Origin: Gemmatimonadales bacterium
GTDB lineage: Bacteria > Gemmatimonadota > Gemmatimonadetes > Gemmatimonadales > JACORV01
DNA: 37,214 bases
Direction of reading: 5' to 3'
NCBI GenBank assembly: GCA_017881505.1
Contig: JADGQW010000004.1
Location: forward strand, 1 to 37,214
The notes beneath the pieces were generated by a model. That model did no database searches. It worked only from the letters and a program-made list of their open reading frames with translations, and was not told the origin of the DNA. Every line of letters begins with the position of its first letter. Position 1 is the stretch's first letter. Made by a program: the position numbers and the translations under genes. Shown here in pieces: positions 3,653 to 27,352 of this stretch.

Positions 3653-3662
3653 CGGAGGCTGA

Positions 3663-8181: not shown

Positions 8182-8184
8182 AGC

Positions 8185-8274
8185 GGAGTGGGAGGGATTC
8201 GAACCCTCGATACAGGTATTAGCCCGTATGACGGTTTAGCAAACCGTTGCCTTCAGCCTCTCGGCCACCACTCC
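8185..8274 (-). tRNA. tRNA-Ser(GCT)
   Basis: Reverse complement GGAGTGGTGGCCGAGAGGCTGAAGGCAACGGTTTGCTAAACCG...GGTTCGAATCCCTCCCACTCC; long variable arm; anticodon loop TTTGCTAAA. Confidence 0.95.
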
Positions 8275-8811: not shown

Positions 8812-10389
8812 ATGAGCACCGCGCTGGCGCCCGCCGACACCGCCGTGAACCTCACGGCCTGTCCGTTCTGTGGTTCGGGCTGCACGCTGACCCTGGCGGA
8901 CGCCGAGGCGTTCCCGGTGCTCGGCGATCCGGTGACCCGCGGGGCGCTGTGCCTCCGCGGCTGGAGTGCCGGGGAGCTGCTCGACTCTCCCCTCCGCGTC
9001 CTCTCCGCGCGGATGCGCATCCGCGGCAGCCCCCTCGCCAAGGCCCCTCTCGAGACCGCGCTCGACCACGCCGCGTCGCGCCTCGCCGCGATCCGCGCGA
9101 AGCACGGACCGGCGAGCATCGGCATCCTCGCCTCCGCGCGCCTCACCCTCGAGGAGCTGCACCTCCTCGCCGGCCTCGCCCACGCCATCGGCACGCCGCA
9201 CCTCGACGCGCTGCAGCGGCTCGGCACCGTGCCGGGCCCGTCGCTCGGGCTCGACGCCATCGCGCTTGCCCAGGGCATCCTCGTCGTTGGCACCGACCTC
9301 AGCGTGCGCCACCCGCAGGTCCACCGCCGCGTCCTCCAGGCGCTCGGGCGTGGCGTGCCGGTGCGGTTCGTCGGGGCGAACGCCGGCCCCCTCGCGACGC
9401 TCGCCACCGAGTGGATCCGCCGCCTTCCCGGCCGCGAGGTGGAGGCGGCAGTGCTGGCGGCGCGCCCCGACGACCTGGTGCTCTGGTCGTCGGAGCTGGC
9501 CCTCCACGGCCAAGGCGGGCCCGCGCTGCGGCGGCTGGGCGGCGCGCACTCCTGGCGTCTCCCCGACTTCGTGAACCAGCTGGGACTGCAGGAGGCCGGC
9601 ATCCATCCGCGCGCGGGCGGCCTCGCCGCGTACGAGATGCTGCAGCGGGCCGCCGCGGGCCAGCTGAAGGCCCTCCTCGTCTTCGCCGACGATCCCTTCG
9701 AGTTCTTCCCCGCGCTCGCCGCGCGCGCCTTCCAGGGCGCCGAGTTCGTGCTGGTGACCGACGCGGTGGCGACCCGCGCGGCGGAGGCGGCGGACGTGGT
9801 CCTCCCCGGGTCGCTGCTCGCGGAGAAGGCGGGCACGCTCCTCGCCGCCGATGGCTCGCGGCGCGCCATCGAGGTGGCGCACGTGGCCCGCGCCGGCATG
9901 TCCGAGGGAGAGGTCGCGCGCCGGCTGGCCGCGGCGTTGGGCGGCAAAGCCGGTCCCGCCCCACGCGCCGCGGCGTTCGCGCCGGGGCCCGACGGCGCCG
10001 CGCCCGACGCCCCGACTCCCGACTACCCCCTCATCGCGGCGCTCGACGGCGCGACGCTGTGGAGCACCCATCCCCTCGTCGGCGCGACGGTCACCGCGCG
10101 CCGGGAGGTGTGGGGTCCGCGCACCGACTTCCCCGACGGCTGGGTGACCATCCACCCCGCCGCCGCGAAGGCCCTCGGCGTGCGGCACGGCTGGACGGTG
10201 CGCCTGGAGAGTGACTGTGGCGGCCTGCTGCTGGCGGTGCGGACGGACCCGCACGCCGCGCCGGGCACCGCCCTGGTCCCGATGCACTGCTGGGAGCGCG
10301 CCGGCACGGCGCTGGGCGCGCTCGAGGTGGATCCGTGTCTCCGCATCCCCGTCTTCCGGCCGCGCGCGGTGCGCATCGGCCGGCAGTAG
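8812..10389 (+). CDS. Short molybdopterin oxidoreductase-like (MopB/NuoG-like) Fe-S subunit of hydrogenase complex, lacking catalytic Cys/Sec motif
   Basis: ACPFCGSGC...LCLRGW [4Fe-4S] motif, internal MopB similarity, C-terminal molydop-binding-like region WVTIHPAAAKALGVRHGW; ~525 aa. Confidence 0.8.
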   Translation: MSTALAPADTAVNLTACPFCGSGCTLTLADAEAFPVLGDPVTRGALCLRGWSAGELLDSPLRVLSARMRIRGSPLAKAPLETALDHAASRLAAIRAKHGPASIGILASARLTLEELHLLAGLAHAIGTPHLDALQRLGTVPGPSLGLDAIALAQGILVVGTDLSVRHPQVHRRVLQALGRGVPVRFVGANAGPLATLATEWIRRLPGREVEAAVLAARPDDLVLWSSELALHGQGGPALRRLGGAHSWRLPDFVNQLGLQEAGIHPRAGGLAAYEMLQRAAAGQLKALLVFADDPFEFFPALAARAFQGAEFVLVTDAVATRAAEAADVVLPGSLLAEKAGTLLAADGSRRAIEVAHVARAGMSEGEVARRLAAALGGKAGPAPRAAAFAPGPDGAAPDAPTPDYPLIAALDGATLWSTHPLVGATVTARREVWGPRTDFPDGWVTIHPAAAKALGVRHGWTVRLESDCGGLLLAVRTDPHAAPGTALVPMHCWERAGTALGALEVDPCLRIPVFRPRAVRIGRQ

Positions 10390-10398
10390 GAGACGACC

Positions 10399-11574
10399 GT
10401 GTCTGACGCGCGCTACTGGGCGAGCGCCGCGGCGCTCGAGGGGATCCTCGACCGGCTGGCGGCGGAGCGCACGCTGATCGGCCCGGTCCGTCGCGGCGGC
10501 GACGTGTACTTCCGGCCGGTGCAGCGGGCGGCCGACCTCTGCCGCGACTACGTCAACGCGCTGGAGCCCCCCAAGCGGTGGTTCCTCCCGACCCCGGAGC
10601 GGCTCGCGCGCTACCGGCTCCCGGGCGGCGTGTCGGTGCCGGGCGGCGACACGCCGCGCGAACTGGTCTTCTTCGGCATCCGCAGCTGCGACGTGGCGGG
10701 CCTGGCGCAGCTCACCCGGTTCTTCTCGGGCGAGACGGTCGGGCGTCCCGACGTCGCCGACGGCCCCTTCATGGCGCGGCGCGAGCGGACCACCATCCTC
10801 AGCGTAGTCTGCCAGGATCCCGCCGAGACGTGCATGTGCGTCTGCTGCAAGGGCGGGCCGGCGCTGGACGCCGGCTACGACTGGCAGCTCACCGCGCTCA
10901 CGAGCGGGTGGCTGATCGAGGTCGGGAGCGCGAAGGGCCGGGAGCTGACGACGCGCTTCGCCTCGTCGCTCGCCCCGGCCGGAGAGCGTCAGCTGGCCGA
11001 GCAGGCCGGGCGCATCGCAGGCGTGGTGGAGAGCTTCCACCGCCACAGCACGCGGCGCGTCCAGTCCATGGCCGCCGGCCGGATGGTCTCCCAGGGCCGC
11101 CTCCCCGAGGCGTTCTGGTCGGCGCTGGGGGAGCGGTGCGTGGAGTGCGGCGGCTGCGCCTTCGTCTGCCCCACCTGCAACTGCTTCAACGTCGTGGACG
11201 CGCCCGAGGCCGGGAGCGGCGTGCTCCCGCCGGCGGGAGGGCCCGAGCCGGCGGTGCCCGGTGGGCCGGTGGCCACGGGGGCGGAAGGCACCTTCGAGCG
11301 GATCCGGCTGCGCGACAGCTGCCAGCTCGCCGGGTTCGTCCGGCAGTACGGCGGCTCGTATCCGCGCGCCACCTGCGGCGAGCGCTGCCGCACCCGCTTC
11401 TTCCACAAACTCTCGTGGCAGTTCGTCGCCCGCGTGGGGACCCTGGGCTGCACCGGCTGCGGCCGCTGCGTGCAGGTGTGCCTCGGCGGGATCGGCATCG
11501 ACGCGGTGTCCCAGCGGATGACCGACGCGCTGGTGGGCGCCCCCGCCGCGGCACCCGCCGCGAAAGGAGCGTGA
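10399..11574 (+). CDS. 4Fe-4S protein, sulfhydrogenase beta / anaerobic sulfite reductase A-like (HydB/AsrA family)
   Basis: FFGIRSCDVAGL, CVECGGCAFVCPTCNCFNV and CTGCGRCVQVC motifs. Confidence 0.85.
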   Translation: MSDARYWASAAALEGILDRLAAERTLIGPVRRGGDVYFRPVQRAADLCRDYVNALEPPKRWFLPTPERLARYRLPGGVSVPGGDTPRELVFFGIRSCDVAGLAQLTRFFSGETVGRPDVADGPFMARRERTTILSVVCQDPAETCMCVCCKGGPALDAGYDWQLTALTSGWLIEVGSAKGRELTTRFASSLAPAGERQLAEQAGRIAGVVESFHRHSTRRVQSMAAGRMVSQGRLPEAFWSALGERCVECGGCAFVCPTCNCFNVVDAPEAGSGVLPPAGGPEPAVPGGPVATGAEGTFERIRLRDSCQLAGFVRQYGGSYPRATCGERCRTRFFHKLSWQFVARVGTLGCTGCGRCVQVCLGGIGIDAVSQRMTDALVGAPAAAPAAKGA

Positions 11575-11577
11575 CCG

Positions 11578-12468
11578 ATGGCCGTGGCCACGCACCCCGT
11601 GCACGACGCGAGCGACCTGTACGTCCCGCGCCCCGTCCGCATCCTCCGCGTCCGTGAGGAGGTCGCCGCCGACGTGGCGACGGGGACGAAGCGGGTGGTG
11701 ACTCTCGACCTGGACCGCGGGGACCTGGACTATCTCCCCGGCCAGTTCCTGCAGGTGACGGCCTTCGGCGCCGGCGAGGTGCCGATCTCCATCTCCTCCC
11801 CCGGTGGCCTGCCGGGCGCGCTCTCCCTGACCATCCGCGACAACGGCGTGATCTCGGGGATGCTGGTCGCCTCGAAGGCGGGGGACACGATCGGCGTGCG
11901 GGGTCCCTTCGGCAACCACTTCGACCTCGACGCGCACCGCGGCCGGGACCTCCTGTTCGTGGGCGGCGGCATCGGCCTCGCGCCGCTCCGCGGCGTGTAC
12001 TGGCAGGCGCTCCTCCGGCGGGGCGACTTCGGCCGCATCGTGTTGCTGCACGGGTCGCGCTGCCCCGGCGAGCTGCTCTACAGCTGGCAGTGGACCGACT
12101 ACGAGCGCCAGGGAGTGGAGATCCTCGTGAGCGCCGACCGCGCTGACGACTGCTGGGCGCACGAGGAGCACCCGAAGCGCTGCGTCGGCCTGATCACGAA
12201 GCTGTTCGACGAGGCGCGGATCGCCCCCGGGCGCACCAGCGCCTTCCTGTGCGGGCCGCCGATCATGATCGAGAACGGCGGCCGCGAGCTGGTGCAGCGC
12301 TTCGGCCTGGCGCCGGAGCGGGTCCTCACGACGTGCGAGCGCCATATGAAGTGCGGCGTCGGGAAGTGCGGGCACTGCGTGGTGGTGGATCGCTACGTCT
12401 GCATCGACGGGCCGGTGTTCAGCTACGAGGAGCTGGCCGCGCTCGGGGCGATCGAGCCGGCGTGGTAG
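11578..12468 (+). CDS. FAD/NAD(P)-binding oxidoreductase, sulfhydrogenase gamma / AsrB-like
   Basis: LPGQFLQV, GPFGNHF, LLFVGGGIGLAPLRG nucleotide-binding loop, C-terminal [2Fe-2S] CERHMKCGVGKCGHC...C. Confidence 0.9.
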   Translation: MAVATHPVHDASDLYVPRPVRILRVREEVAADVATGTKRVVTLDLDRGDLDYLPGQFLQVTAFGAGEVPISISSPGGLPGALSLTIRDNGVISGMLVASKAGDTIGVRGPFGNHFDLDAHRGRDLLFVGGGIGLAPLRGVYWQALLRRGDFGRIVLLHGSRCPGELLYSWQWTDYERQGVEILVSADRADDCWAHEEHPKRCVGLITKLFDEARIAPGRTSAFLCGPPIMIENGGRELVQRFGLAPERVLTTCERHMKCGVGKCGHCVVVDRYVCIDGPVFSYEELAALGAIEPAW

Positions 12469-12472
12469 CTCG

Positions 12473-12961
12473 ATGACGCACTCCGACGCCGACCGGCTCA
12501 CCGCCCTGGTGGCGGACGAGGGGGCGCTCGTCGTCGGCGTGGGCCATCCCCTCTGCGGCGACGACGCCGTGGGCTCCGTGATCGCGGGCTGCCTCGCTGC
12601 GCGCTTCCCCGACCGCGTCATCGACGCCGGGAGCGTCCCCGAGAACTTCTTCGGCCCGCTGGCCGCGGTGGAGGGGCGCCCCGTGGTGTTCCTCGACGCC
12701 GCCGCCGGGGCCGGGGAGCCCGGGAGTTGGTGCCTCGCCGGCGCCGATGCCCTCGTCGGCCGTGCCCCCGATACGCACCGCGCCTCCCTGCGGCTCCTCG
12801 CGGGGCTGCTCGCCGAGCGCGCCATCCCGACCTGGATCGTGGGCATCGCGCCGGCATCTCTCGCACCGGGCGCGCCGCTCACCTTCCCGGTCGCCCGCGC
12901 CGCGGACGACCTGGTCGCGCTGCTGACCGCCGCCCTCGTGGAGGCGCCTGTCCATGTCTGA
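12473..12961 (+). CDS. [NiFe] hydrogenase maturation protease (HycI/HyaD family)
   Basis: VVGVGHPLCGDDAVGSVIA start, internal IDAGSVPENF and Asp motifs; located in hydrogenase operon. Confidence 0.85.
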   Translation: MTHSDADRLTALVADEGALVVGVGHPLCGDDAVGSVIAGCLAARFPDRVIDAGSVPENFFGPLAAVEGRPVVFLDAAAGAGEPGSWCLAGADALVGRAPDTHRASLRLLAGLLAERAIPTWIVGIAPASLAPGAPLTFPVARAADDLVALLTAALVEAPVHV

Positions 12962-14471
12962 CGCCGTGGTGTGGGGATTCCTCCTCCTCGTCCTCGTCCC
13001 CCTCGCGGGCGCGCTGCTGGTCCGGGCGGCGCCGCGCCGGGCCGCCGACACGATCGCGATCGCGACGGCGCTCGTCGTCGCCGTCGTCGCCGTGTGGATG
13101 GTGGCGGCCTACGGGATCCGGGGCGCGTCGCTCCCCCTCGGCGGCCTGGCGGTGGTGGACCGCGTGCTGGCGCACCCGGTCGCGCTCTTCGGCTTCCGGC
13201 TCGACGCCCTCGCCAGCCTCGTCCTCCTCGCCAACGCCCTCATCGGCGTGGCGTGCGTGATCTACGCCTCGGCGTACGTAGGCCCGAAGAACCGCGAGAT
13301 TCCCGCGAGCGACGACCGCCGGAGCTTCTACTTCTGGCTCCTCCTCTTCGTCGGCGCGATGTCGGGGCTCGTCACCTCGGCCACGCTCCTCCAGCTCTTC
13401 CTCTTCTGGGAGATCACCACCCTCTGTTCGTGGGCACTGATCGGCTACTACCAGGAGGAGCACGGGGCGCTCGCCGCGGCGTACAAGGCGTTCCTGATGA
13501 CGGGGGGCGGCAGTCTCGCCCTCCTCGCGAGCGTGATCATCCTCCTCGCGGTCACGGGCTCGGTGGACTTCGGCGCCCTCGCGCAGCTGAGTGCGGGCGG
13601 CCGAGCGGGGCTCGCCACCGTGCTCTGCGTGTTGCTCTTCGTGGGGGCGTGGGCGAAGTCGGGGCAGGTGCCCTTCCACACCTGGCTCCCCGACGCGATG
13701 GTGGCGCCGAGCCCGGTGAGCGCCTACCTGCACGCCGCCTCGATGGTGAACGCGGGCGCGTACCTCCTCCTCCGCGTGGTGACGGCGTCCGGCGCGACCG
13801 GCCCGGGCACGGGGCTCCCCTCCGGCGCAGTGACCCTCGCGCTGGTGATGGGGGTGCTGACGCTGGTCGTCGCCGTGGCGCAGTTCTCCTACCAGACCGA
13901 CCTCAAGCGCCTCCTCGCCCTCTCGACGATCGCGGGGCTCTCGTACGTGTTCATCGGCGCGGCGCTCGGGGCCGCCGGCTCGCCCCTCGCGGCGCAGGGC
14001 GGCGCGCTCCACATCCTCGCCCACGGGGCGGGGAAGGGGCTCCTCTTCCTCGCGGCGGGGACGCTGAGCTACGCGTGCGGCACGCGGAGGATCGCCGACC
14101 TCTCGGGGGTGCTGCGGCGCCAGCCGGTGGCCGCGGTGGGCTTCCTCGTCGGCGCGCTGACGGTGACGGGCGTCCCGCCCTTCGCGGGGTTCTGGAGCAA
14201 GTTCACCCTCATCTCCGGCGCGGTGCAGCTCGGCGGGACGGGCGTCCTCGTCGCGGTCGTCCTCCTCCTCGAGAGCGTCTTCGCCTTCGCGTGGTTCCTC
14301 TGGGTCGGCCACCGCGTCTTCCTGGGAACGCCGTCCCCGGCGGTGGAGGCCTCCTCGCCGCCCTCGAGGGCGATGGACCTGGCCCTCATCCTGCTGATGG
14401 TGCTCTGCCTCGCCGTGCCGCTCGCCGGGCTTCCGCTCGCGTCGGCGATCGGCCTCGGTCCCGGGAGGTAG
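12954..14471 (+). CDS. Antiporter-like membrane subunit (NuoL/M/N, HyfD/MrpD-like)
   Basis: Multi-TM; GAWAKSGQVPFHTWLPDAMVAPSPVSAYLHAASMVNAGAYLL signature. Confidence 0.9.
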   Translation: MSDAVVWGFLLLVLVPLAGALLVRAAPRRAADTIAIATALVVAVVAVWMVAAYGIRGASLPLGGLAVVDRVLAHPVALFGFRLDALASLVLLANALIGVACVIYASAYVGPKNREIPASDDRRSFYFWLLLFVGAMSGLVTSATLLQLFLFWEITTLCSWALIGYYQEEHGALAAAYKAFLMTGGGSLALLASVIILLAVTGSVDFGALAQLSAGGRAGLATVLCVLLFVGAWAKSGQVPFHTWLPDAMVAPSPVSAYLHAASMVNAGAYLLLRVVTASGATGPGTGLPSGAVTLALVMGVLTLVVAVAQFSYQTDLKRLLALSTIAGLSYVFIGAALGAAGSPLAAQGGALHILAHGAGKGLLFLAAGTLSYACGTRRIADLSGVLRRQPVAAVGFLVGALTVTGVPPFAGFWSKFTLISGAVQLGGTGVLVAVVLLLESVFAFAWFLWVGHRVFLGTPSPAVEASSPPSRAMDLALILLMVLCLAVPLAGLPLASAIGLGPGR

Positions 14472-14474
14472 ACG

Positions 14475-16280
14475 ATGGTGACCGCGCTTCCCCCGCTCGC
14501 CCAGCTCCTCGCCCAGTGGCGGCTCGACGCCCTCGGCGCGGCGTTCGCCATCCCGACCGTCGTCCTGGTCGTCGTCGCCGCCGTCTACGCGCCGCCGTAC
14601 CTGGCGCAGGAGCGGTACCGCTCGGAGAGCCCGCGGCGCTTCTGGCTCGCGTACGCCCTCTTCGCCGCGGGGATGCTCGCCGCGGTGGCGGCGTGGGACC
14701 TGCTGCTCTTCGTGGCCAGCTGGGAAGTGATGACCCTCGCCTCGTACGTGCTCGTGGCGCACGAGACGTCGGAAGCGGGGGCGACGCGGGCGGCGTTCAA
14801 GTACTTCGTGATGACGCACGCCGCGTCGGCGTGCCTCCTCCTCGCCGTGATGCTGCTCTGGGCGGAGGGCGGGGCGCTCGGCTTCGATGGGCTCCGCACG
14901 ACGCTGGCAGCGCTGGCGGCCGACCGGCCGCTCCTCCTCCACGTGGTGCTCGGCCTCCTCTTCATCGCCTTCGCCACCAAGGCGGGACTGTATCCCCTCG
15001 GCGACTGGCTCCCCGACGCGCATCCAGCCGCGCCGGCGCCCGTCTCGGCGGTGCTCTCCGGCATCATGGTGAAGATCGGGCTGTACGGCTTCGTGCGGTT
15101 CTTCGTTTGGGGCCTCGCGGCGGCGGCGCCGGCGGTCGCGGCGGCGTGGGGTTATCCCCTCGCGGCCGCGGGCATCGTATCGGCCGTCCTCGGCGGCTTC
15201 GCCGCGTGCGCCGCGGGGGACACCAAGGTCCTCCTCGCGTATTCCTCCATCGCGCAGAGCGGTCTCATCGCCCTCGGGATCGGCGCGGGCCTCGTCCTGG
15301 CTCCGCAGCATCCGGCCCTCGCGCAACTCGCGCTTCTCGGCGCGCTCTTCCATACGGTGAGCGACGCGGCGGTGAAGGCGCTCCTCTTCCTCGTCGCGGG
15401 CTCGCTCCAGTACCGCACGGGCAGCCGGCGCCTCGACGCGATGGGCGGCCTCTTCCACGCCATGCCCGTGACGGCGTGGACGGCGCTCGCGGCCTGCCTC
15501 GCCATCGCCGGCTTCCCGCCGCTCACGGCGTTCACCGGGAAGTGGCTGATGCTCCAGGGGACGGTGCTCTCCGGCTCGGCGCTCCTGGTCGGCGCCGGGA
15601 TCGCGCTCCTCGTGGCGAGCGTCCTCTCCATCCTCTACGCCCTCAAGTTCTTCTCGGGCGCCTTCCTCGCGGGGCCGGTGCGCGCGGGCGCGCTGGAGGT
15701 GCCGGCGGCGATGGCCGGCGCGCAGGTCGCGCTCGCGGTCATCATCCTCGCGCTCAGCGTGACGCCGGGGCTCTGGCTCGGCCTCCTCTCGGGCGCGCTG
15801 CCGGGGCCGACCTTCGGTGCGGCGGCGGTGCCCTCGGGATGGGGCGTGTTCGCCGTCGGGCCGGTGACGGGCTCGTACGCTCCCCTTCTCCTCGTCGTGG
15901 CGGGGGCGTGGACCTGCGGCCTCGCGATGGTCGCGATCGGCCGACGCCGGAAGGCGCCGCGCGCCGTGCGCACCTGGATGGGCGGCTCGGCGCTGGGCGC
16001 GTCGCTGGCGCCGGTCTCCGCGAGCGGGTTCTTCGTGCCGATGCGGGAGCAGATGGGGGGCGCATACGCGGGGCTGCGGTTCCACGCGGTGCGGATGCCG
16101 GCGTGGGTGGTCCCGTCGGTGAACGTGGACCGGTGGGTGTTCGGCCCGGCGGTGCGCGCCGGGCTCGGCGTGGGCGCGGCGCTCCAGCGGATGCACACGG
16201 GCACGGCGCACCGCTACATCATCTGGCAGCTCCTCGGCGCGGCGGCGCTGATCACGCTGCTGTTCGTCGTACGGGCGTAG
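14475..16280 (+). CDS. Antiporter-like membrane subunit (HyfB/HycC-like)
   Basis: Multi-TM; FIAFATKAGLYPLGDWLPDAHPAAPAPVSAVLSGIMVKIGLYGF signature; ~601 aa. Confidence 0.9.
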   Translation: MVTALPPLAQLLAQWRLDALGAAFAIPTVVLVVVAAVYAPPYLAQERYRSESPRRFWLAYALFAAGMLAAVAAWDLLLFVASWEVMTLASYVLVAHETSEAGATRAAFKYFVMTHAASACLLLAVMLLWAEGGALGFDGLRTTLAALAADRPLLLHVVLGLLFIAFATKAGLYPLGDWLPDAHPAAPAPVSAVLSGIMVKIGLYGFVRFFVWGLAAAAPAVAAAWGYPLAAAGIVSAVLGGFAACAAGDTKVLLAYSSIAQSGLIALGIGAGLVLAPQHPALAQLALLGALFHTVSDAAVKALLFLVAGSLQYRTGSRRLDAMGGLFHAMPVTAWTALAACLAIAGFPPLTAFTGKWLMLQGTVLSGSALLVGAGIALLVASVLSILYALKFFSGAFLAGPVRAGALEVPAAMAGAQVALAVIILALSVTPGLWLGLLSGALPGPTFGAAAVPSGWGVFAVGPVTGSYAPLLLVVAGAWTCGLAMVAIGRRRKAPRAVRTWMGGSALGASLAPVSASGFFVPMREQMGGAYAGLRFHAVRMPAWVVPSVNVDRWVFGPAVRAGLGVGAALQRMHTGTAHRYIIWQLLGAAALITLLFVVRA

Positions 16281-16293
16281 GAGGGGGGCGGCG

Positions 16294-18015
16294 ATGACCA
16301 CCATGTCCATCGAGCGGACCGATCGGGTCGCGGGCAGCCTGGTGTCCGCGCTGGGCGAGCATCTGCTCCACCTCGACCGGCCCGCGCCCGACCGCATCTA
16401 CTGCGACGTCGCGCGCGACGCCAGCGTGGCGGCGGTGAAGGCGCTGTTCGAGGGGCTCAAGGCCCGGTACGTGATCTCCGTGGGCCTCGACCGCCGCGGC
16501 GAGGGGGCAGGGTTCGAGGTGCTTCACTGCTTCGCGATGGACGAGGAGCACGTGCGCTGCGCGCTGCGCGTCGCGCTGAGCCCGGAGCACCCCTCCATCC
16601 CGTCCATCACCCCGGTCATCCCGGGCGCTTCGTGGGCGGAGCTCGAGATCCGCGACCTCTTCGGCATCGGGATCGAGGGCCATCCCGACCCGCGCCGCCT
16701 CGTGCTCCCCGACGGCTTCCCCGACGACGTCCACCCGCTCCGGAAGGACTTCCCGTACGACGCGAAGCCGCCGCTCGACGGCCCTTCGCGCCCCTTCACC
16801 CCCGCGCCCCCCGGCACCACCGAGGTGCGGCTGGGGCCGTTCTTCCCGGTGCTCGAGGAGCCGTCGCAGTGGCGGCTGTTCGTGGACGGCGAGCGCATCG
16901 TGGGGACCGACTACCGCGGTTTCTACAGCCATCGCGCGATCGAGAAGCTGGCGGAGGCGAAGCTCTCTTACAACCAGGTGATCTCCCTCGCCGAGCGGAT
17001 CTGCGGCATCTGCGGGTGCGTGCACTCGACGTCGTACGTCCAGGCGGTCGAGGAGGCAGCGGGGCTCGCGGTGCCGCGGCGGGCGCGGGTCATCCGCTCC
17101 CTGGTGCTGGAGCTGGAGCGGCTGCAGAGCCACCTCCTGTGGCTGGGCATCGCCTGCCACATCCTCGGTTTCGACTTCGTGTTCCAGCAGTCGTGGCGGG
17201 TGCGGGAGCCGCTGATGACCCTCGCCGAGGCGCTGACGGGGAGCCGCAAGCACTTCCAGGTGAACGTGGTGGGGGGCGTGACCTTCGACGTGACGGCGGC
17301 GGGGCAGGAGCGGATCCTGGAGACGCTCACGGGCGTCGAGCGGGAGACGAGCGCGCTGGTGAAGGCGCTGGAGGGGGACCAGGCGCTGGTCCAGCGGCTC
17401 CAGCACGTGGGGATGTTCACGCCGGAGGAGGTGCGGCTCTCGGGCGCGGTGGGGCCGACGGCGCGCGGCAGCGGCGTCCCGGTGGACGCGCGGAAGGACC
17501 ACCCGTACGCGGCGTACGACGAGCTCGACTTCCAGGTGGTCACCCACGACGGCTGCGACAACTGGGGCCGGACGGTGGTGCGCATCGGCGAGGCGTTCGA
17601 ATCGGCGAAGATGCTGCGCCAGTGCGTCGCGCTGCTGCGGGAGATGCCGGAGGGGGGTCTCGTGGCGGACGTCCCGGACCGCCTGCCGCCGTTCCGCGAG
17701 GGGATGCACGGGGTGGAGGCGCCGCGCGGGGAGGTGTTCCACTACGTGCGCACCGGCTCGGGGAACGGCCCCGACCGCTGGCGGGTGCGGGCGCCGAGCT
17801 ACCAGAACATCCAGGCGGTCCCGACGATGCTGAAGCCGGGGACCACCGTGGCCGACGTGCCGATCACCCTCGGCAGCGTGGACCCCTGCTTCTCGTGCAC
17901 CGAGCGGATGGAGGTGCTCGACCTCGGGGCGCGCACGCGCCGGGTGCTCGACGCCGGCGAGATCCGGGAGCTCGCGCGCTCCGGGCGGATGCCGCCCGAG
18001 CGGAGTGCCCGGTGA
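16294..18015 (+). CDS. Group 4-type [NiFe] hydrogenase large subunit, NuoC-NuoD fusion (HyfG/HycE-like)
   Basis: N-terminal NuoC-like region, L1 ERICGICGCVHS, L2 DPCFSCTER (all four Ni-ligand Cys), C-terminal extension after L2. Confidence 0.93.
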   Translation: MTTMSIERTDRVAGSLVSALGEHLLHLDRPAPDRIYCDVARDASVAAVKALFEGLKARYVISVGLDRRGEGAGFEVLHCFAMDEEHVRCALRVALSPEHPSIPSITPVIPGASWAELEIRDLFGIGIEGHPDPRRLVLPDGFPDDVHPLRKDFPYDAKPPLDGPSRPFTPAPPGTTEVRLGPFFPVLEEPSQWRLFVDGERIVGTDYRGFYSHRAIEKLAEAKLSYNQVISLAERICGICGCVHSTSYVQAVEEAAGLAVPRRARVIRSLVLELERLQSHLLWLGIACHILGFDFVFQQSWRVREPLMTLAEALTGSRKHFQVNVVGGVTFDVTAAGQERILETLTGVERETSALVKALEGDQALVQRLQHVGMFTPEEVRLSGAVGPTARGSGVPVDARKDHPYAAYDELDFQVVTHDGCDNWGRTVVRIGEAFESAKMLRQCVALLREMPEGGLVADVPDRLPPFREGMHGVEAPRGEVFHYVRTGSGNGPDRWRVRAPSYQNIQAVPTMLKPGTTVADVPITLGSVDPCFSCTERMEVLDLGARTRRVLDAGEIRELARSGRMPPERSAR

Positions 18016-18920
18016 GCCCCGCGCTCGGGGCGGTGGTGTGGCTCCTCCTCGGGCCGGCGCTGGTCCTCGCGGCGGGGCCGTGGCTCGACGGCTTCGGCCG
18101 CCGGGTGCGGGCGCGGCTCGAGTCGCGGCGCGGCCCGCCGATGGTGCAGGGGTACCTCGACCTCGCCAAGCTCGCCACGAAGGAAGGGCTCGTCGCCGTC
18201 ACGAACCCGGTGACCGCGGCGGCGCCGTGGGTGGCCCTGGCGGCCGCGGTCACCGCGGGGGTGCTGGTGCCCCTCGGGGGCGCGACGCCGCTCGGCTTCG
18301 CGGGGGACATGGTCGTTGTGCTCTATCTCCTCGGCGTCTCGGCCGCGGCCGTCGCGCTCGGGGGCGCGTCGGGGGCGAGCGCCTACGGCTTCCTCGGCGC
18401 CAGCCGCGAGCTGCTGCTCCTCCTCCTGGTGGAGCCGGTGGTGGCGGGGGCGTTCCTGGTCGTGGGGCTCCAGGCGGGGACGTTCCGCCTCGGCGGGATG
18501 GCGGCGTGGGAGCTGGCGCACGGCCCGACGGTCGCGTCGGTGCTCGCGGGCGTGGCGGCCGGCGTGGCGCTCCTCGCGTACCTGGGGCGTGTGCCGTTCG
18601 ACCTCTCGGAGGCGGAGCAGGAGCTGACGGGGGGCGCGCTGGTGGAGTTCGGCGGCCGGCCGCTCGCGCTCTTCCGCTGGGCGCTCTTCACGCGCTGGCT
18701 CGTGGCGGCGTGGGTGGTGGTGGAGGTCTTCGTCCCGACGCCGCTCCGCGGGCCGGCGGGCGCCGCCGCGTCGGCGGGGCTGGTGGTGGTGCTGTTCGGC
18801 GTCCTGTCGGTGCTCTCGACGCTGATCGCGCGGCTGCGGATCGACCAGGCGCGGGTGTTCCTGGTGCAGATCGGGCTGCTGATGCTGTTCGCGTTCACCT
18901 TCGCGGTGATGGGCGCGTAG
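18012..18920 (+). CDS. NuoH-like membrane subunit (HyfC/HycD)
   Basis: RRGPPMVQGYLDLAKLATKEG, GRVPFDLSEAEQEL; GTG overlapping upstream TGA. Confidence 0.9.
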   Translation: MSPALGAVVWLLLGPALVLAAGPWLDGFGRRVRARLESRRGPPMVQGYLDLAKLATKEGLVAVTNPVTAAAPWVALAAAVTAGVLVPLGGATPLGFAGDMVVVLYLLGVSAAAVALGGASGASAYGFLGASRELLLLLLVEPVVAGAFLVVGLQAGTFRLGGMAAWELAHGPTVASVLAGVAAGVALLAYLGRVPFDLSEAEQELTGGALVEFGGRPLALFRWALFTRWLVAAWVVVEVFVPTPLRGPAGAAASAGLVVVLFGVLSVLSTLIARLRIDQARVFLVQIGLLMLFAFTFAVMGA

Positions 18921-18928
18921 GAGGCGAG

Positions 18929-19399
18929 ATGCTGGCGGCGAAGATCCGGCAGTTCCGGCTGGGGCTCAACACGGAGCGGGCGACGGTGGCGTACCCGTTC
19001 GCGCCGCACCCCGCCGAGCCGAACGCCCGCGGCCAGGTGGTCGTGGACACCGATAAGTGCACCGGGTGCGGCGGGTGCGCCGACGTCTGCCCCAGCCGCT
19101 GCATCCTCATCACCGACCTCGCGCCCCACTGGCGGATGCTGCGCCGCCACCTCGAGCGCTGCATCCACTGCGGCCGCTGCGAGGCCGCTTGCGACTACGG
19201 CGCCGTCGCCCTGACGCCCGAGTACGAGCTGGGGACCACCGACCGGGCCGACCTCCTCGTCGAGCAGCGGCTCTTCATGGGCGTGTGCGACCGGTGCGGG
19301 CGCTGCTACGTCCCGGGGCACCCCCTCGACGGGCTGAAGGCGGTGGGGACGCGGGTCGAGGAGCCGGCGCTGCTGGCCCTCGCGGGCGGGGGGCGGTGA
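18929..19399 (+). CDS. NuoI-like 2x[4Fe-4S] subunit (HyfH/HycF)
   Basis: CTGCGGCADVCPSRC and CIHCGRCEAACDYG; C-terminal CDRCGRC knuckle. Confidence 0.9.
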   Translation: MLAAKIRQFRLGLNTERATVAYPFAPHPAEPNARGQVVVDTDKCTGCGGCADVCPSRCILITDLAPHWRMLRRHLERCIHCGRCEAACDYGAVALTPEYELGTTDRADLLVEQRLFMGVCDRCGRCYVPGHPLDGLKAVGTRVEEPALLALAGGGR

Positions 19400-20055
19400 T
19401 GGAAGCCGTCATCCGCACTCTCTCGCTGGGGATGATCCTGACGTCCTTCGTGGCGGTGGAGTCGCGCAGCATGCGGCGGGCGCTCTACGCCTACATGGGT
19501 CAGGCGCTCCTGATGGTGGCGGTCATCGCCTGCTTCGCCACGTACCACGAGGCGCTGGCGCTGTGGGCCGCGACGGCGTTCGTGACCAAGTTCGGCCTCA
19601 TCTCCTGGCTGCTGTTCCGCGCCGTCCGGCGGGGGGACGACCAGGAGTGCCCGCCGCGCGTCGGGCAGGTGACGTCGGCCGTGGTGATCGGCGCGCTCGC
19701 CATCGCGGCGTACGCGCTGGTCCACCGCAACGTCGCCTTCCTCGCGCCCACGCCGATCGCGGAGATGGAGCCGTACCGGACCAACGTCGCGGTCGCCCTC
19801 ACGCTGCTCGCGGTCGGCATCTACGCGATCGTGACGCGACGCGACGCGCTGAAGGTGGTCCTCGGCGTCTGCCTGATCGAGAACGGGGCGCACCTGTCGC
19901 TCGTCTCCCTGGCCACCACGATGCACGAGACGGTCCTGATCGGCATGGTGACCGACGTGGTGCTCGCCGTGTTCATCCTGCTCATCCTGATCCGCGGCAT
20001 CGAGGAGCGGACCGGGTCGCGGGACACCAGCCGTCTGACGCTGCTGCGAGGGTAG
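19399..20055 (+). CDS. Hydrogenase-4 component E-like membrane subunit (HyfE)
   Basis: Multi-TM ~218 aa with NuoK-like C-terminal half (LGVCLIENGAHLSL); position in operon. Confidence 0.8.
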   Translation: MEAVIRTLSLGMILTSFVAVESRSMRRALYAYMGQALLMVAVIACFATYHEALALWAATAFVTKFGLISWLLFRAVRRGDDQECPPRVGQVTSAVVIGALAIAAYALVHRNVAFLAPTPIAEMEPYRTNVAVALTLLAVGIYAIVTRRDALKVVLGVCLIENGAHLSLVSLATTMHETVLIGMVTDVVLAVFILLILIRGIEERTGSRDTSRLTLLRG

Positions 20056-20064
20056 GGGGCTCCC

Positions 20065-21531
20065 GTGCTGCCGATCGCCGTCCTGGCAATGCCGCTCCTG
20101 ACCGCCGCCGCCGTCTGGCTCACGCGGGGCGTGCGCCTCCGCGCGTGGGTGTGGGTGGGCGGCTCCGCCGTCTCCCTCGTCCTCGCCGCGGTGCAGGCGT
20201 CGCGCGTCGTCGCCGATGGACCCATCTCGGCCCTCGGCGGGGAGCTGCTGGTGGACGGGCTCGCCGCGCTGATGGCGCTGCTCGTCGGCTTCCTGGCCTT
20301 CGCCTGCGCCGTCTACGCGGCGGGATACCTCCCCGGCGTGCATCCCCTCGAGGCGAGCCGGCGCGAGATCCTCGAGCGCCGCACCCCGATGTTCCAGGCC
20401 CTCTTCCCCGTCCTCCAGTCCACGCTGCTGTGGGTCGTGATGACCAACAACATCGTGCTGCTCTGGGTGGCGCTGGAGGCGACCACGCTCGCGTCGGCGC
20501 TCCTCGTCTCCTTCTACTGGGACGGCCGCGCCATCGAGGCGGGCTACAAGTACCTCCTCCTCCTGACGGTGGGGATCACCGCCGCCTTCTTCGGGTGCGT
20601 GCTCCTCTACTCCGCCGCCGCGCCGCACCTGGGCTCCTCCTCGGCGCTCCTCATCAGCAACCTGCGCGGGGTCGCCGACAAGATCCCCCGCGACATCGCC
20701 CTGCTGGCCACGGTGCTGCTGCTGATCGGCTTCGGGACCAAGGCCGGGCTCGCGCCCTTCCACCCGTGGGTGGCCGACGCGTACGCGGAAGCGCCGGCGG
20801 TGATGAGCGCTTTCCTGGGGAGCGTGATCTCGAAGGTGCCCTTCATCGGGATCATCCGGGTGTGGCAGATCCTCGGACCGCAGCATCCCGAGCTGAACAC
20901 GCTGCTCCTGTGGCTGGGCGTGTTCACCATCGTGGTGGGGGGCTTCCTCGCGCTGGCGCAGGACGAGCTGAAGCGGATGCACGCCTACTCCAGCGTGGCG
21001 CAGTACGGCTACGTGGCGCTCGCGCTGGGCACGGGGGGCTACCTCGGCTACTACGCGGCGGCGCTCTTCATGGTGAGCCACGCCCTGACGAAGGGGCTTC
21101 TCTTCTTCACCGCCGGCTCCGTCATCTACGCCACGAAGGGCCAGCGCTCGATGTCGGCACTCGGCGGGCTCGGGAAGAAGCTCCCCGTCACCGCGGCGTG
21201 CAGCCTCGCGGGCGCCCTCTCGCTGGCCGGGCTCCCCCCCTTCAGCGGGTTCGCCGGGAAGGCGGCGGTGGTCTTCGCCGCCGCGACGAGCGCGCAATGG
21301 GTGCCGTTGGGCATCGCGGTCGGGATGAGCCTCGTCACGATGGCGTACATGATCGGGATGACGCAGCGCGTGTTCCGCGGGGTGGCGCCGGCCGCGATCG
21401 ACCTGGACACGGTGCGCGAGGTCCCCGCGACGATGCGGGTGGCGATGATGCTCCTGGCGGCCGCGATGCTCGCGGTCGGCCTGCTGCCCGGACTGCTCGA
21501 CCCGCTCCTCGACCTCGCGGCGCGGACCTGA
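20065..21531 (+). CDS. Antiporter-like membrane subunit (HyfF/NuoL-M-like)
   Basis: GFGTKAGLAPFHPWVADAYAEAPAVMSAFLGSVISKVPFIGIIR signature. Confidence 0.9.
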   Translation: MLPIAVLAMPLLTAAAVWLTRGVRLRAWVWVGGSAVSLVLAAVQASRVVADGPISALGGELLVDGLAALMALLVGFLAFACAVYAAGYLPGVHPLEASRREILERRTPMFQALFPVLQSTLLWVVMTNNIVLLWVALEATTLASALLVSFYWDGRAIEAGYKYLLLLTVGITAAFFGCVLLYSAAAPHLGSSSALLISNLRGVADKIPRDIALLATVLLLIGFGTKAGLAPFHPWVADAYAEAPAVMSAFLGSVISKVPFIGIIRVWQILGPQHPELNTLLLWLGVFTIVVGGFLALAQDELKRMHAYSSVAQYGYVALALGTGGYLGYYAAALFMVSHALTKGLLFFTAGSVIYATKGQRSMSALGGLGKKLPVTAACSLAGALSLAGLPPFSGFAGKAAVVFAAATSAQWVPLGIAVGMSLVTMAYMIGMTQRVFRGVAPAAIDLDTVREVPATMRVAMMLLAAAMLAVGLLPGLLDPLLDLAART

Positions 21532-21544
21532 GGGAGGTGGCCCC

Positions 21545-22105
21545 GTGCTGAAGAACGGCATCCTGCAGCAGCTCTTCCCCAAGGCGGGGCTCCGCTCCCT
21601 CTGGGTGTTCCACACCAACGTGGGCGCCTGCAACGGGTGCGACATCGAGATCCTCGACGCGCTGACGCCGTACTTCGACGTGGAGCGGTTCGGGATCAAG
21701 CTGATCGGCTCGCCGCGCCACGCCGACGTGCTGCTGGTGGCGGGGCCGGTCACGCGGCCGATGGAGAAGCCGCTCCGGGAGCTCTACGAGGCGGTGCCCG
21801 ACCCCAAGATCGTGATGGCGATCGGGGCGTGCGCGGTGGGCGGGGGCCCGTGGTTCGACACCTACAACGTCGTGGGCGGCGTGGACAAGGTCATCCCGGT
21901 GGACATCTACATCCCCGGCTGTCCCGCGCGGCCCGAGGCGATCATCAACGGCGTGGCGCAGCTCCTGGCGCTGGCGGAGAAGAAGATCTTCCCGGTGAAG
22001 GAGTCGCAGGAGTCGCCGGAGGAGCTGGCGGCCGTGGGGCGGGTCCCGCCGCGCGTGGGCGCGATGCTGCCGGCGGACGTGGTGGCGGCGCTGATGAAGC
22101 ACTAA
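21545..22105 (+). CDS. Hydrogenase small subunit, NuoB-like (HyfI/HycG)
   Basis: GACNGCDIEI, GACAVGGG, PGCPARPE proximal [4Fe-4S] ligands. Confidence 0.92.
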   Translation: MLKNGILQQLFPKAGLRSLWVFHTNVGACNGCDIEILDALTPYFDVERFGIKLIGSPRHADVLLVAGPVTRPMEKPLRELYEAVPDPKIVMAIGACAVGGGPWFDTYNVVGGVDKVIPVDIYIPGCPARPEAIINGVAQLLALAEKKIFPVKESQESPEELAAVGRVPPRVGAMLPADVVAALMKH

Positions 22106-22159: not shown

Positions 22160-22192
22160 AGCGCCCCGCACCGGCTTTCGGTGCGGGGCGCT
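22160..22192. terminator. Strong hairpin terminator, possibly bidirectional
   Basis: Perfect 13-bp stem AGCGCCCCGCACC/GGTGCGGGGCGCT with 7-nt loop GGCTTTC, short T run after; between convergent genes. Confidence 0.85.
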
Positions 22193-23660: not shown

Positions 23661-23791
23661 GACGTCAGTCCCCTCTCATACCGCGATGATATGCACTGCG
23701 GCGCGCCGTTTCGCCACCTCGACGGCGAGCGGGCATCGAGGTCGGCGCTTGCGCGATCACGAGTGGCCGAAGGGGGAGGCGAGGCGGGAGC

Positions 23792-23874
23792 GGAGGGCGG
23801 GGGACTCGAACCCCCACGGGCTTGCGCCCAGCGGTTTTCAAGACCGCCGCCTTACCAGTTAGGTCTAGCCCTCC
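23792..23874 (-). tRNA. tRNA-Ser(TGA)
   Basis: Reverse complement has 7-bp acceptor GGAGGGC/GCCCTCC, anticodon stem GCGGT-CTTGAAA-ACCGC, long variable arm, T arm GGGGGTTCGAGTCCCCC. Confidence 0.92.
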
Positions 23875-24098: not shown

Positions 24099-24171
24099 GT
24101 TGCCTTTGATCGGCGGTCCATGCACCTAAGTGGGTGCGCAGAGGCCTGACATTCCAACGGAGGGTTCAGCG

Positions 24172-24486
24172 ATGAGCGTGAAGCGTGTGATGGTCGGCGC
24201 GGCAGTCCTAATGGTGTTCGCGGCGAGCGCCGCGCAGGCGCAGACGCCGGCGCAGCTCTACGCGACGAACTGCTTGATGTGCCACGGCGCGACGGGGACC
24301 CCGGCGGCCGGGATGGTGCGCTCGATGGGCGCGATGCCCGACTTCGCGACGGTCGTGGCGCCGGCGGACAGCGTCTGGGTGCGCGCGATCACGGCGGGGA
24401 AGGGGAAGATGCCGGCGATGGGCGGCCGTCTGCAGCCCGCGCAGGTCCGCGCCCTGGTGGCGTACCTCCACACCCTGAAGAAGTAG
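24172..24486 (+). CDS. Small exported monoheme cytochrome c
   Basis: Signal peptide (VMVGAAVLMVFAASAAQAQ) and CLMCH; C-terminal MPAMGG Met ligand. Confidence 0.9.
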   Translation: MSVKRVMVGAAVLMVFAASAAQAQTPAQLYATNCLMCHGATGTPAAGMVRSMGAMPDFATVVAPADSVWVRAITAGKGKMPAMGGRLQPAQVRALVAYLHTLKK

Positions 24487-24511
24487 CAAGGCCCAGCGCA
24501 GGGAGAGTATC

Positions 24512-25294
24512 GTGGCACGTCCGTTCGCACCGTGGCGGGGCTTCGCCGCCATGCCGCAGCAGGTCCGCCGCCTCGCGGTCGTGATCGTGCTGCTCGTCGC
24601 CGCGTACTTCACCGCGCGCCATTTCCTGGTGCCGCGGACCTTCGGCGAGAAGGGGCACTACCGCGCGGCGGCGGTGGACAGCATCGCCGTGCTCCCGATC
24701 CATTACGCGGGGCGCGAGGCGTGCGCGATGTGCCACCCGGCGGAGGTGGCCAAGAAGGCCGGCTCCTTCCACCGGGGCGTGTCGTGCGAGGCGTGCCACG
24801 GGCCGGAGGCGGCGCACACCACCGACCCGATCGGCCACAAGCCCACGGCCCCGAGGGACCGCGCCTTCTGCGTGCGGTGCCACGCGTACGATCCGGCGCG
24901 GCCGACCGGCTTCCCGCAGATCGACCCGGTGCTGCACAACCCGGTGCGGAACTGCTTCACCTGCCACAACCCGCACGACCCGACGCCCCCGCGCCCGCCC
25001 GAGACGTGCGCGGCATGCCATGGCGAGATCGCGCGGACGAAGGCGGTCTCCCCCCACGCGCAGCTCGCGTGCACGGAGTGCCACACCGCCGACCCACGCC
25101 ACGCGCAGGCGCCGCGGCAGTTCCTGCCCTCGAAACCGGCGAGTCGCGAGTTCTGCGGGCGCTGCCACGCCAGCGATGCCCCGCCGCCGGCGCACCTCCC
25201 CGACGCGCGGCCGCCGAAGGTGGACCTCGCGACGCACGGCCCGCGGTACGTCTGCTGGCAGTGCCATTACCCCCACTACCCCGAGGCGCGCTGA
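24512..25294 (+). CDS. Membrane-anchored octaheme cytochrome c
   Basis: Eight CXXCH: CAMCH, CEACH, CVRCH, CFTCH, CAACH, CTECH, CGRCH, CWQCH; N-terminal TM helix. Confidence 0.92.
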   Translation: MARPFAPWRGFAAMPQQVRRLAVVIVLLVAAYFTARHFLVPRTFGEKGHYRAAAVDSIAVLPIHYAGREACAMCHPAEVAKKAGSFHRGVSCEACHGPEAAHTTDPIGHKPTAPRDRAFCVRCHAYDPARPTGFPQIDPVLHNPVRNCFTCHNPHDPTPPRPPETCAACHGEIARTKAVSPHAQLACTECHTADPRHAQAPRQFLPSKPASREFCGRCHASDAPPPAHLPDARPPKVDLATHGPRYVCWQCHYPHYPEAR

Positions 25295-26109
25295 TGGCCG
25301 ACGAGCGCCCCACCCCCGGCGGGATCGACCGGCGCGCCTTCGTCGGCGCGTGCGTGGCGGTCGCCGCGCCGCTCGTCCTGAGCGCCGCGCAGCAGGCGGC
25401 CCCCGCGGCCCCGGACACGGCGCACGCGGCGCCCGACAGCGCCCAGGGCGCGACCGGCACGCCGCGCTACGACCCGCGCACCCACTACTACGGGATGGGC
25501 GTGGACGTCTCCAAGTGCATCGGCTGCGGCCAGTGCGCGGCGGCGTGCAAGGCGGAGAACAACGTCCCCCTCGACCCGCACCACTTCCGCACCTGGGTCG
25601 AGCGGTACGTGATCCACGAGAACGCCGAGGCCACGGTGGACAGCCCGAACGGCGGCATCGACGGCTTCCCCGCGCCCGTGGCGGAGGGGGGCGTGGTGCG
25701 GAGCTTCTTCGTCCCGAAGCTCTGCAATCACTGCGCGAACCCGCCCTGCGTGCAGGTCTGCCCCGTCGGGGCGACCTTCAGCACCGAGGACGGCGTGGTG
25801 CTGGTGGACGAGTCGTACTGCATCGGCTGCCGCTACTGCATCCAGGCGTGCCCCTACGGCGCGCGCTTCCTGCATCCGGTCAGCCACACGGCGCAGAAGT
25901 GCACCTTCTGCTACCACCGGGTGGTGCAGGGGATGGTCCCGGCGTGCGTCGAGGTGTGCCCGACGGGGGCGCGGGTCTTCGGCGAGGTGCACCGGCCCAG
26001 CAGCCCGCTCACCCGGTTCCGTCGCTTCAACGCGATCCAGGTGCTGAAGCCGCACCTGAACACGGAGCCGAAGGTCTTCTACGCGAACCTCGACGGACAG
26101 GTGCGCTAG
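25294..26109 (+). CDS. TAT-exported 4Fe-4S ferredoxin-type subunit (HybA/PsrB/DmsB-like)
   Basis: DRRAFVGA twin-Arg signal; CIGCGQCAAAC, CNHCANPPCVQVCP, CIGCRYCIQACPYG, CTFC...CVEVCP. Confidence 0.92.
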   Translation: MADERPTPGGIDRRAFVGACVAVAAPLVLSAAQQAAPAAPDTAHAAPDSAQGATGTPRYDPRTHYYGMGVDVSKCIGCGQCAAACKAENNVPLDPHHFRTWVERYVIHENAEATVDSPNGGIDGFPAPVAEGGVVRSFFVPKLCNHCANPPCVQVCPVGATFSTEDGVVLVDESYCIGCRYCIQACPYGARFLHPVSHTAQKCTFCYHRVVQGMVPACVEVCPTGARVFGEVHRPSSPLTRFRRFNAIQVLKPHLNTEPKVFYANLDGQVR

Positions 26110-26112
26110 GCC

Positions 26113-27336
26113 ATGCAAGGCTACATCTATCCGAACGAGTTCGAGCTCCAGTGGAGCCTGCTGATCGTCGTCTACCCGTACCTCACGGGGCTCGTGGCGG
26201 GGGCGTTCATCCTCGCCTCCCTGGCGCGGGTGTTCAACGTGAAGGAAGTGCAGCCCACGTACCGGCTCTCGCTCCTCACCGCGCTGGCCTTTCTCATCGC
26301 CGCGCCGCTCCCGCTCCTCGGCCACCTCGGCCACCCGGAGCGCGCGTACGAGATCCTGATGACGCCGAACACGCGCTCCGCGATGGCGATGTTCGGGTTC
26401 GTGTACCTGTGGTACCTGATGATGGTCCTGCTGCTCGAGATCTGGTTCGACTACCGCAAGGACCTCGTCGTCTGGTCGCGAGGGAAGACGGGCGTCCTCG
26501 CCTCGTTCCGCCGGCTGTTGACGCTGGGCGTCACCGACCTCTCGGAGGACGCGCTCCGGTTCGACCGGAGGGCCGGCAAGCTGATCACCATCATCGGCAT
26601 CCCTTCCGCGTTCCTCCTGCACGGGTACGTGGGCTTCATCTTCGGCTCGATCAAGGCCAACCCGTGGTGGAGCAGCGTGCTGATGCCGGTGGTGTTCCTC
26701 TTCTCCGCCATCGTCTCCGGCATCGCGCTGATGCTGGTGATCTACTTCTTCTCGACGATGCTGCGGAGCCGGCCGGTGGACATGGCCTGCATGGACAAGC
26801 TGGGCTCGTTCCTGCTGTACGCCCTGATCGTGGACTTCTCCCTCGAGATGCTCGACTTCACCCAGCGGCTGTACGAGGCCGAGGAGTCCATCAGCATCCT
26901 CGGGCAGATGCTCTCGAGCCGCCTGGTGCTCAGCCTCATCATCCTCCAGGTGCTGATCGGCACCATCGTCCCGCTCGTCACCCTCTTCCTGGTGGCGCCC
27001 ACGGTCCGCAAGCGGGGCTTCCTCAAGGTCCCCGACGAGTTCCGCCGCCTGCTGTACTTCGTGGTGGCGGTGTTCATCCAGATCGGCATCTTCAGCACCC
27101 GGTGGAACGTGGTGATCGGCGGCCAGCTCTTCTCCAAGAGCCTGCGCGGCCTGACCACCTTCAAGGTCGGGCTGCTGGGCATCGAGGGGATCCTGGTGGC
27201 GGGGGCGATCATGCTCCTTCCGCTGGTAATCCTGTACATTCTGGTGAAGGTGGTGCCGCCATGGCCCGATGCCGAGGCCGTGGTGGAGTCGGAACTGACC
27301 GGCGCCGACCCGGTGCCGGCGGTGCAGCCGTCCTAG
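26113..27336 (+). CDS. NrfD/PsrC-family integral membrane quinone-interacting subunit
   Basis: Multi-TM; LGHLGHPERAYEILMTPNTRSAM pattern; adjacent to Fe-S subunit. Confidence 0.9.
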   Translation: MQGYIYPNEFELQWSLLIVVYPYLTGLVAGAFILASLARVFNVKEVQPTYRLSLLTALAFLIAAPLPLLGHLGHPERAYEILMTPNTRSAMAMFGFVYLWYLMMVLLLEIWFDYRKDLVVWSRGKTGVLASFRRLLTLGVTDLSEDALRFDRRAGKLITIIGIPSAFLLHGYVGFIFGSIKANPWWSSVLMPVVFLFSAIVSGIALMLVIYFFSTMLRSRPVDMACMDKLGSFLLYALIVDFSLEMLDFTQRLYEAEESISILGQMLSSRLVLSLIILQVLIGTIVPLVTLFLVAPTVRKRGFLKVPDEFRRLLYFVVAVFIQIGIFSTRWNVVIGGQLFSKSLRGLTTFKVGLLGIEGILVAGAIMLLPLVILYILVKVVPPWPDAEAVVESELTGADPVPAVQPS

Positions 27337-27352
27337 CGACCACGGTGGCCCG

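Follow-up and report, generated by a model that had tools for sequence, protein, structure and literature searches.

A complex I-related group 4 [NiFe] hydrogenase with a sulfhydrogenase-type, presumed NAD(P)H head and a formate dehydrogenase relative that lacks the catalytic residues

We analysed a 37,214-nucleotide stretch of DNA from a Gemmatimonadales bacterium (contig JADGQW010000004.1 of assembly GCA_017881505.1, positions 1 to 37,214; hereafter the window) and found that positions 8812-22105 of the forward strand hold a single 12-gene operon in the order mop-hydB-hydG-protease-hyfD-hyfB-hyfG-hyfC-hyfH-hyfE-hyfF-hyfI. The likely product of the operon is a membrane-bound relative of complex I, a [NiFe] hydrogenase that interconverts H2 and NAD(P)H, in which Mop, a relative of formate dehydrogenase (FDH), would be a non-catalytic subunit comparable to NuoG. 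That the FDH active site has been lost across the family is the new element and the most informative part of this analysis. All 12 genes lie on one strand, overlapping slightly or separated by no more than about 15 bases, in keeping with the tightly packed, partly overlapping set described in a first-pass annotation made from the sequence alone, and purine-rich stretches resembling ribosome-binding sites stand upstream of most starts. Chance or an assembly artefact was ruled out because the same 12-gene order occurs in independent genomes; domain E-values in profile searches reach 1e-140.

The hydrogenase core is of the Hyf/Hyc type. HyfG is a genuine [NiFe] group 4 large subunit as judged from its sequence: it carries both nickel motifs (L1 CGICGC and L2 DPCFSC, with all four cysteines) and a 32-residue C-terminal tail beyond L2 that resembles that of E. 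coli HycE, and its closest solved structure is HycE of the E. coli formate hydrogenlyase (FHL; 383 bits in a search of the PDB). These intact nickel ligands rule out the non-hydrogenase Ehr reading. Homologue alignments showed conservation of the cluster cysteines of HyfH (eight) and HyfI (four). HyfB, HyfD and HyfF retain the glutamate of transmembrane helix (TM) 5 and the lysines of TM7 and TM12 of antiporter-like subunits. The membrane arm is present, with HyfB, HyfD, HyfF and HyfE recognised by profile and HyfC by conserved position only. The maturation proteins HypD and HypF are encoded elsewhere in the genome. A second hydrogenase locus of the same genome (contig C204, locus L139) combines a Vhu/Mvh-like large subunit with an HdrB-like protein, HypD and HypF.

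Upstream of this core lie two genes whose products point to a head of the sulfhydrogenase beta/gamma type. Sequence searches of the PDB matched HydB to the beta subunit of Pyrococcus furiosus SHI (9nez_B) and HydG to its gamma subunit (9nez_C, E 1e-44), a reference structure solved with NADPH. SHI beta (9nf0_B) was also the best structural match in Foldseek to the HydB model (pLDDT 82), with a TM-score of 0.84 by target length. The cluster cysteines of both proteins are nearly all invariant across about 60 homologues: 15 cysteines of HydB are invariant among 59, and the four [2Fe-2S] cysteines of HydG are kept in 61 of 61. We ruled out an AsrABC anaerobic sulfite reductase, as the operon contains no siroheme subunit AsrC; AsrA and AsrB scored 83 and 155 bits against cut-offs of 323 and 289. 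The pairing of a Hyf/Hyc-type membrane hydrogenase with a sulfhydrogenase-type head, first proposed from the letters alone, finds support in sequence and fold as well as in gene order and its conservation among relatives.

Mop had been called MopB-like, and its FDH/MopB fold was borne out, with the qualification that it is not a formate dehydrogenase: its [4Fe-4S] cysteines are present but Sec/Cys140 (selenocysteine or cysteine), His141 and Arg333 are absent. The same holds nearly throughout the family. Among 56 Mops from loci with HydB and HydG, 54-55 retain the four N-terminal [4Fe-4S] cysteines and 53 have Arg in place of Lys44, whereas Sec/Cys140 is found in two, His141 in one, Arg333 in none and the full catalytic set in none. 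Position 140 is Tyr in 39 of them and otherwise G, F, S, V, H, Q or T. E. coli FdhF and five FDHs from loci without HydB and HydG have all catalytic residues intact, with Cys or Sec. Typical Mops of about 680 residues retain roughly 60% of the FDH-invariant columns and the window's Mop 33%; it is some 190 residues shorter than FdhF and lacks the DPR motif as well as additional segments. The AlphaFold2 model of this protein (pLDDT 89.5) matched FDHs best in Foldseek (TM-score by query length 0.80), followed by NuoG (0.74), and also resembled Nfn/Stn transhydrogenases; in profile searches it scored 128 bits for FDH alpha versus 56 bits for NuoG. The best reading of these sequences is that Mop descended from an FDH, lost the catalytic site and now serves as a structural or electron-relay subunit, as NuoG does. 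In L020 (mop at 2252-3991), a close relative, the fourth [4Fe-4S] cysteine is lost (C42 to F), and the cluster may be dispensable there. The Aminicenantes Mop of L056 keeps Cys140-His141 and not Arg333, and is perhaps an intermediate state.

We determined how widely this arrangement is conserved from a scan of genome contigs, which gave 80 loci, and from a scan of 395 Gemmatimonadota genomes, which gave seven genomes besides the window's own, six of them matching at 49-54% identity. The first-pass annotation had set as a test whether hydB and hydG lie beside this hydrogenase in relatives. They adjoin a group 4 hydrogenase in 63 distinct loci, the window included, of about 75 assessable, counting only loci with sufficient flank and counting once a contig that was fetched twice. 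Both nickel motifs are present in 62 of the 63; the exception, L094 from Verrucomicrobia, has several broken frames across hydB, hydG, hyfB, hyfG and hyfI that are probably assembly errors or marks of a decaying copy. The mop gene adjoins hydB and hydG wherever the locus reaches far enough, although it was not found upstream in L023. These loci span at least eight phyla, carrying the NCBI labels Armatimonadota, Acidobacteriota, Verrucomicrobiota, Lentisphaerota, Spirochaetota, Omnitrophota, Methylomirabilota, Planctomycetota and Gemmatimonadota, with a few genomes possibly mis-binned. Most Verrucomicrobiota and Acidobacteriota have a compact layout with HyfB alone, and the Gemmatimonadota, including the window, a large layout with HyfB, D, E and F. 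Five further Gemmatimonadota loci (L113, L114, L117, L118 and L119/L044) have exactly the window's 12 genes in the same order, with HyfG about 50% identical, and the window fits the group in its mop-hydB-hydG-protease block linked to hyfG and its Mop without FDH residues. One Gemmatimonadota genome (G330) encodes three hyfG paralogues (L114, L115 and L116), only one of which has the HydB/HydG head; no HycB-like ferredoxin was found near the two headless ones.

The distribution of HycB suggests that one input module has been exchanged for another. A HycB/HyfA-type linker with four [4Fe-4S] clusters is found neither in the window's operon nor in any HydB/HydG locus, and it occurs in nine of 12 assessable loci without HydB and HydG, comprising all five with an intact FDH together with L050, L096, L029 and L039. 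This mutual exclusion gave p = 2e-9 in a Fisher test uncorrected for descent, a value inflated because the loci are related. We infer that HydB and HydG took over from HycB in feeding HyfH and that the FDH partner decayed to a structural subunit.

In the mechanism we propose, NAD(P)H would bind HydG at its FAD, and electrons would pass from the [2Fe-2S] cluster of HydG to the [4Fe-4S] clusters of HydB and, possibly by way of the N-terminal cluster of Mop, to HyfH, HyfI and the [NiFe] site of HyfG. HyfG would be coupled through HyfC to the three antiporter-like subunits HyfB, HyfD and HyfF, with HydB and HydG occupying the position that HycB and FdhF hold in FHL. By homology, the complex probably works in either direction. 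At 1 bar the H+/H2 couple stands near -414 mV, against roughly -320 mV for NAD(P)+/NAD(P)H. Oxidation of H2 could therefore drive NAD(P)+ reduction and pay for ion export; production of H2 from NAD(P)H would need low H2 or an ion gradient, and ion-driven operation in this reverse mode, at low H2 pressure, would let electrons from NAD(P)H leave as H2.

Several observations weigh against this interpretation. HydB and HydG score far under every NCBIfam equivalog cut-off (122 bits against 690, and 167 against 600), and substrate or NADPH specificity therefore cannot be transferred by name. The presumed site of nicotinamide specificity is ambiguous, with an invariant Asp187 followed mostly by Arg188, as against Thr-Arg in SHI gamma. 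For FHL-type enzymes themselves, ion pumping is not a settled matter. When the exchange of HycB for HydB/HydG was tested with correction for descent, only two informative contrasts were left, both in the predicted direction. We found no biochemistry on such an enzyme in the literature; an earlier biochemical characterisation was the other ground on which the first-pass annotation would have been refuted. The arrangement itself appears in a genome report of 2019 (PMC6349859).

We weighed four other explanations. The operon could encode an FHL in which Mop still oxidises formate and HydB and HydG merely add an NAD(P)H branch: FDH alpha is the nearest curated family of Mop, the four Fe-S cysteines are retained, and a formate/nitrite transporter gene lies near the operon though outside it. 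We rejected this reading, which we consider very improbable, on the absent FDH residues; the shortened, eroded window Mop also speaks against it, as does a full FDH encoded on another contig of this genome (C8; 748.7 bits, above the family cut-off). That Mop is instead an active molybdo- or tungstoenzyme on another substrate, the complex linking some other reductant to NAD(P) and H2, is unlikely; in its favour are the FDH-invariant columns held by typical members and the conservative exchange of Lys44 for Arg. In some members of the superfamily the metal has no ligand from the protein, which also counts for it. On the other hand, no single residue substitutes for the ligand at position 140, the Mops of the window and of L020 are eroded further, and inactive FdhF-like domains are documented in the Stn transhydrogenase (PMC10482914).

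The identity of the electron partner and the integrity of the complex can also be questioned. Ferredoxin could be the real partner, either by itself or in electron confurcation with NAD(P)H, as in Mbh and Ech or in bifurcating enzymes. HydB is rich in cluster cysteines, HydDB includes ferredoxin-coupled group 4 classes in the available part of its description (PMC5037454), and an Mbh-like function was proposed by the authors of a report on a Saganbacteria hydrogenase (PMC6349859). Yet the FAD- and NAD-binding domain pair of HydG is conserved with its [2Fe-2S] cysteines in all homologues, and the operon has no second flavoprotein or NuoF-like subunit; we consider ferredoxin unlikely to be the real partner. 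Least credible of all is that Mop, HydB and HydG form a separate soluble enzyme merely co-transcribed with an ordinary membrane hydrogenase. Aminicenantes locus L056 (2515-6476) does reorder the three genes as hydG-mop-hydB, as such independence would allow, but the HycB ferredoxin, the alternative source of electrons for HyfH, is missing from HydB/HydG loci, and linkage to the hydrogenase is tight across phyla.

The H2:NAD(P)H hydrogenase that we favour shares parts with several known systems. Like FHL (Hyc/Hyf, group 4a, of E. coli; PDB 7z0s/7z0t), it has a NuoC-fused large subunit with a C-terminal tail, a small subunit, HyfH, membrane subunits and a HycI protease, but it lacks the HycB/HyfA ferredoxin, its FdhF relative is without the FDH active site, and HydB and HydG are added. 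These two subunits are shared with the group 3b NADP-linked sulfhydrogenase (P. furiosus SHI, HydABGD; PDB 9nez/9nf0), whereas the hydrogenase of the operon is a membrane-bound group 4 enzyme and HydA and HydD are absent. Complex I (NuoA-N) likewise has an antiporter-like membrane arm, a non-catalytic FDH-fold subunit and an NAD(P)H head, the last presumed for the operon; the operon differs in keeping the [NiFe] ligands, in its HydB/HydG head without NuoE or NuoF, and in a Mop nearer to FDH alpha. StnABC and NfnABC are likewise NAD(P)H enzymes with an FdhF-like domain that is catalytically inactive, so called for Stn by the authors of its structure (PMC10482914), but they are bifurcating transhydrogenases without a hydrogenase.

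The arrangement is not new as such: one Saganbacteria case was reported in 2019, and it is widespread. According to the available portion of that report, the 'enigmatic' group 4 hydrogenase of Saganbacteria RX5A (Matheus Carnevali et al. 2019, PMC6349859) lies in one region with antiporter-like subunits, an unclassifiable molybdopterin oxidoreductase, asrA and asrB, a likeness that we draw from the description; the region also holds cooF, unlike the window's operon, and relatives are noted in Zixibacteria and Omnitrophica. The same portion favours an Mbh-like function and does not mention loss of the FDH residues. Literature searches on HydDB subgroup names and on HydB/HydG joined to a group 4 hydrogenase yielded nothing; besides this report, the only relevant work we found was a paper on peatland Acidobacteria that interprets an fdhF-hyf operon as FHL (PMC6018796). 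Our peat-bog Acidobacteria locus L087, possibly from a different genome, has the inactive type of Mop. The available part of the HydDB description (PMC5037454) assigns class 4a to formate and has no NAD(P)H-linked member among classes 4a to 4e; enzymes of the present kind are therefore liable to be read as FHL and their hosts as formate oxidisers.

The window's copy was probably acquired horizontally. We assigned the host to Gemmatimonadota because its RpoB identity is highest there, at 71% to a named Gemmatimonadetes metagenome-assembled genome (MAG; the source of L044) and two genomes of the same order, versus lower values, for the most part 46-64% across long segments, to the remaining named phyla in the sample. 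In a tree of HyfG sequences the window's copy groups with two Armatimonadota MAGs (SH-aLRT 100) and the other Gemmatimonadota copies form a separate clade (SH-aLRT 99); E. coli HycE and HyfG branch outside all 88 related sequences. Among 40 sampled relatives of the same order, the main matches included no HyfG above 36% identity. This scarcity and the placement with Armatimonadota point to horizontal transfer, with the exact donor uncertain because the window's branch is long.

The window is one contig (C282) of a 2.8-Mb genome in 289 contigs, and its features are collected in Table 1. A G+C-rich hairpin past hyfI is a probable terminator by its sequence. On the opposite strand, and outside the operon, lie gltX and a tRNA-Ser gene to the left and Band-7, NfeD and a second tRNA-Ser gene to the right. 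The contigs of relatives end at this point, and no close homologue of the Band-7 gene was found in the family. A separate cytochrome cluster farther right is largely found together in two family members (L137 and L138). A long open reading frame (ORF) near the left end is conserved in family members along with downstream FAH and aminotransferase genes.

Table 1. Features of the window, with coordinates, strand and basis of assignment
Feature	Coordinates	Strand	Basis or remark
Mop, MopB/formate dehydrogenase-fold protein, 525 aa	8812..10389	+	Pfam Molybdopterin, Molydop_binding, Fe4S4
HydB, sulfhydrogenase beta/AsrA-like Fe-S subunit	10399..11574	+	ShyB 122 bits, HydB 106, AsrA 83
HydG, sulfhydrogenase gamma/AsrB-like FAD/NAD(P)-binding [2Fe-2S] subunit	11578..12468	+	domain profiles, PDB match
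HycI/HyaD-family hydrogenase maturation protease	12473..12961	+	TIGR00072 63.9 bits, above cut-off
HyfD, antiporter-like membrane subunit	12954..14471	+	hydrogenase 4 subunit D 467 bits, above cut-off
HyfB, antiporter-like membrane subunit	14475..16280	+	hydrogenase 4 subunit B 337 bits
HyfG, [NiFe] large subunit with fused NuoC-like N-terminal domain	16294..18015	+	profiles, motifs, PDB match
HyfC, NuoH/HycD-like membrane subunit	18012..18920	+	position and a conserved ORF at the corresponding site of relatives only; start GTG 18012 inferred here
HyfH, 2x[4Fe-4S] electron-transfer subunit (HycF/NuoI-like)	18929..19399	+	formate hydrogenlyase Fe-S subunit 93 bits; start ATG 18929 inferred here
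HyfE, membrane subunit	19399..20055	+	hydrogenase 4 membrane subunit 132 bits; start ATG 19399 inferred here
HyfF, antiporter-like membrane subunit	20065..21531	+	hydrogenase 4 subunit F 281 bits
HyfI, NuoB-like small subunit, proximal [4Fe-4S]	21545..22105	+	Pfam Oxidored_q6 E 4e-33
G+C-rich hairpin, then TTT (probable terminator)	22161-22191	+	past last gene hyfI; folding z = -6.1
tRNA-Ser genes (GCT, TGA)	8183-8274 and 23790-23874	-	flank operon region
1035-aa ORF	437-3541	+	helicase C-terminal, DEAD-like and RadC-like matches
Cytochrome cluster	24130-31063		cytochrome c, ActB-like Fe-S protein, NrfD, multiheme cytochrome, DOMON protein, cytochrome b
Formate/nitrite transporter family gene	31194-32282	-	

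A step proposed for the origin of complex I involves a subunit of the FDH type, a relative of NuoG/NDUFS1 (PMC9474812). We put forward tentatively, at somewhat short of even chances, that a broad lineage of the complex I superfamily consists of H2:NAD(P)+ ion pumps in which FDH became a NuoG-like subunit when HydB and HydG replaced HycB, a second and parallel route from an FHL to an NAD(P)H-linked ion pump. If this is true, many uncultured Verrucomicrobiota, Acidobacteriota, Armatimonadota and others would balance NAD(P)H directly against H2 in an energy-coupled reaction, and the family would be an independent re-run of the proposed step in complex I origin and a testable model for it.

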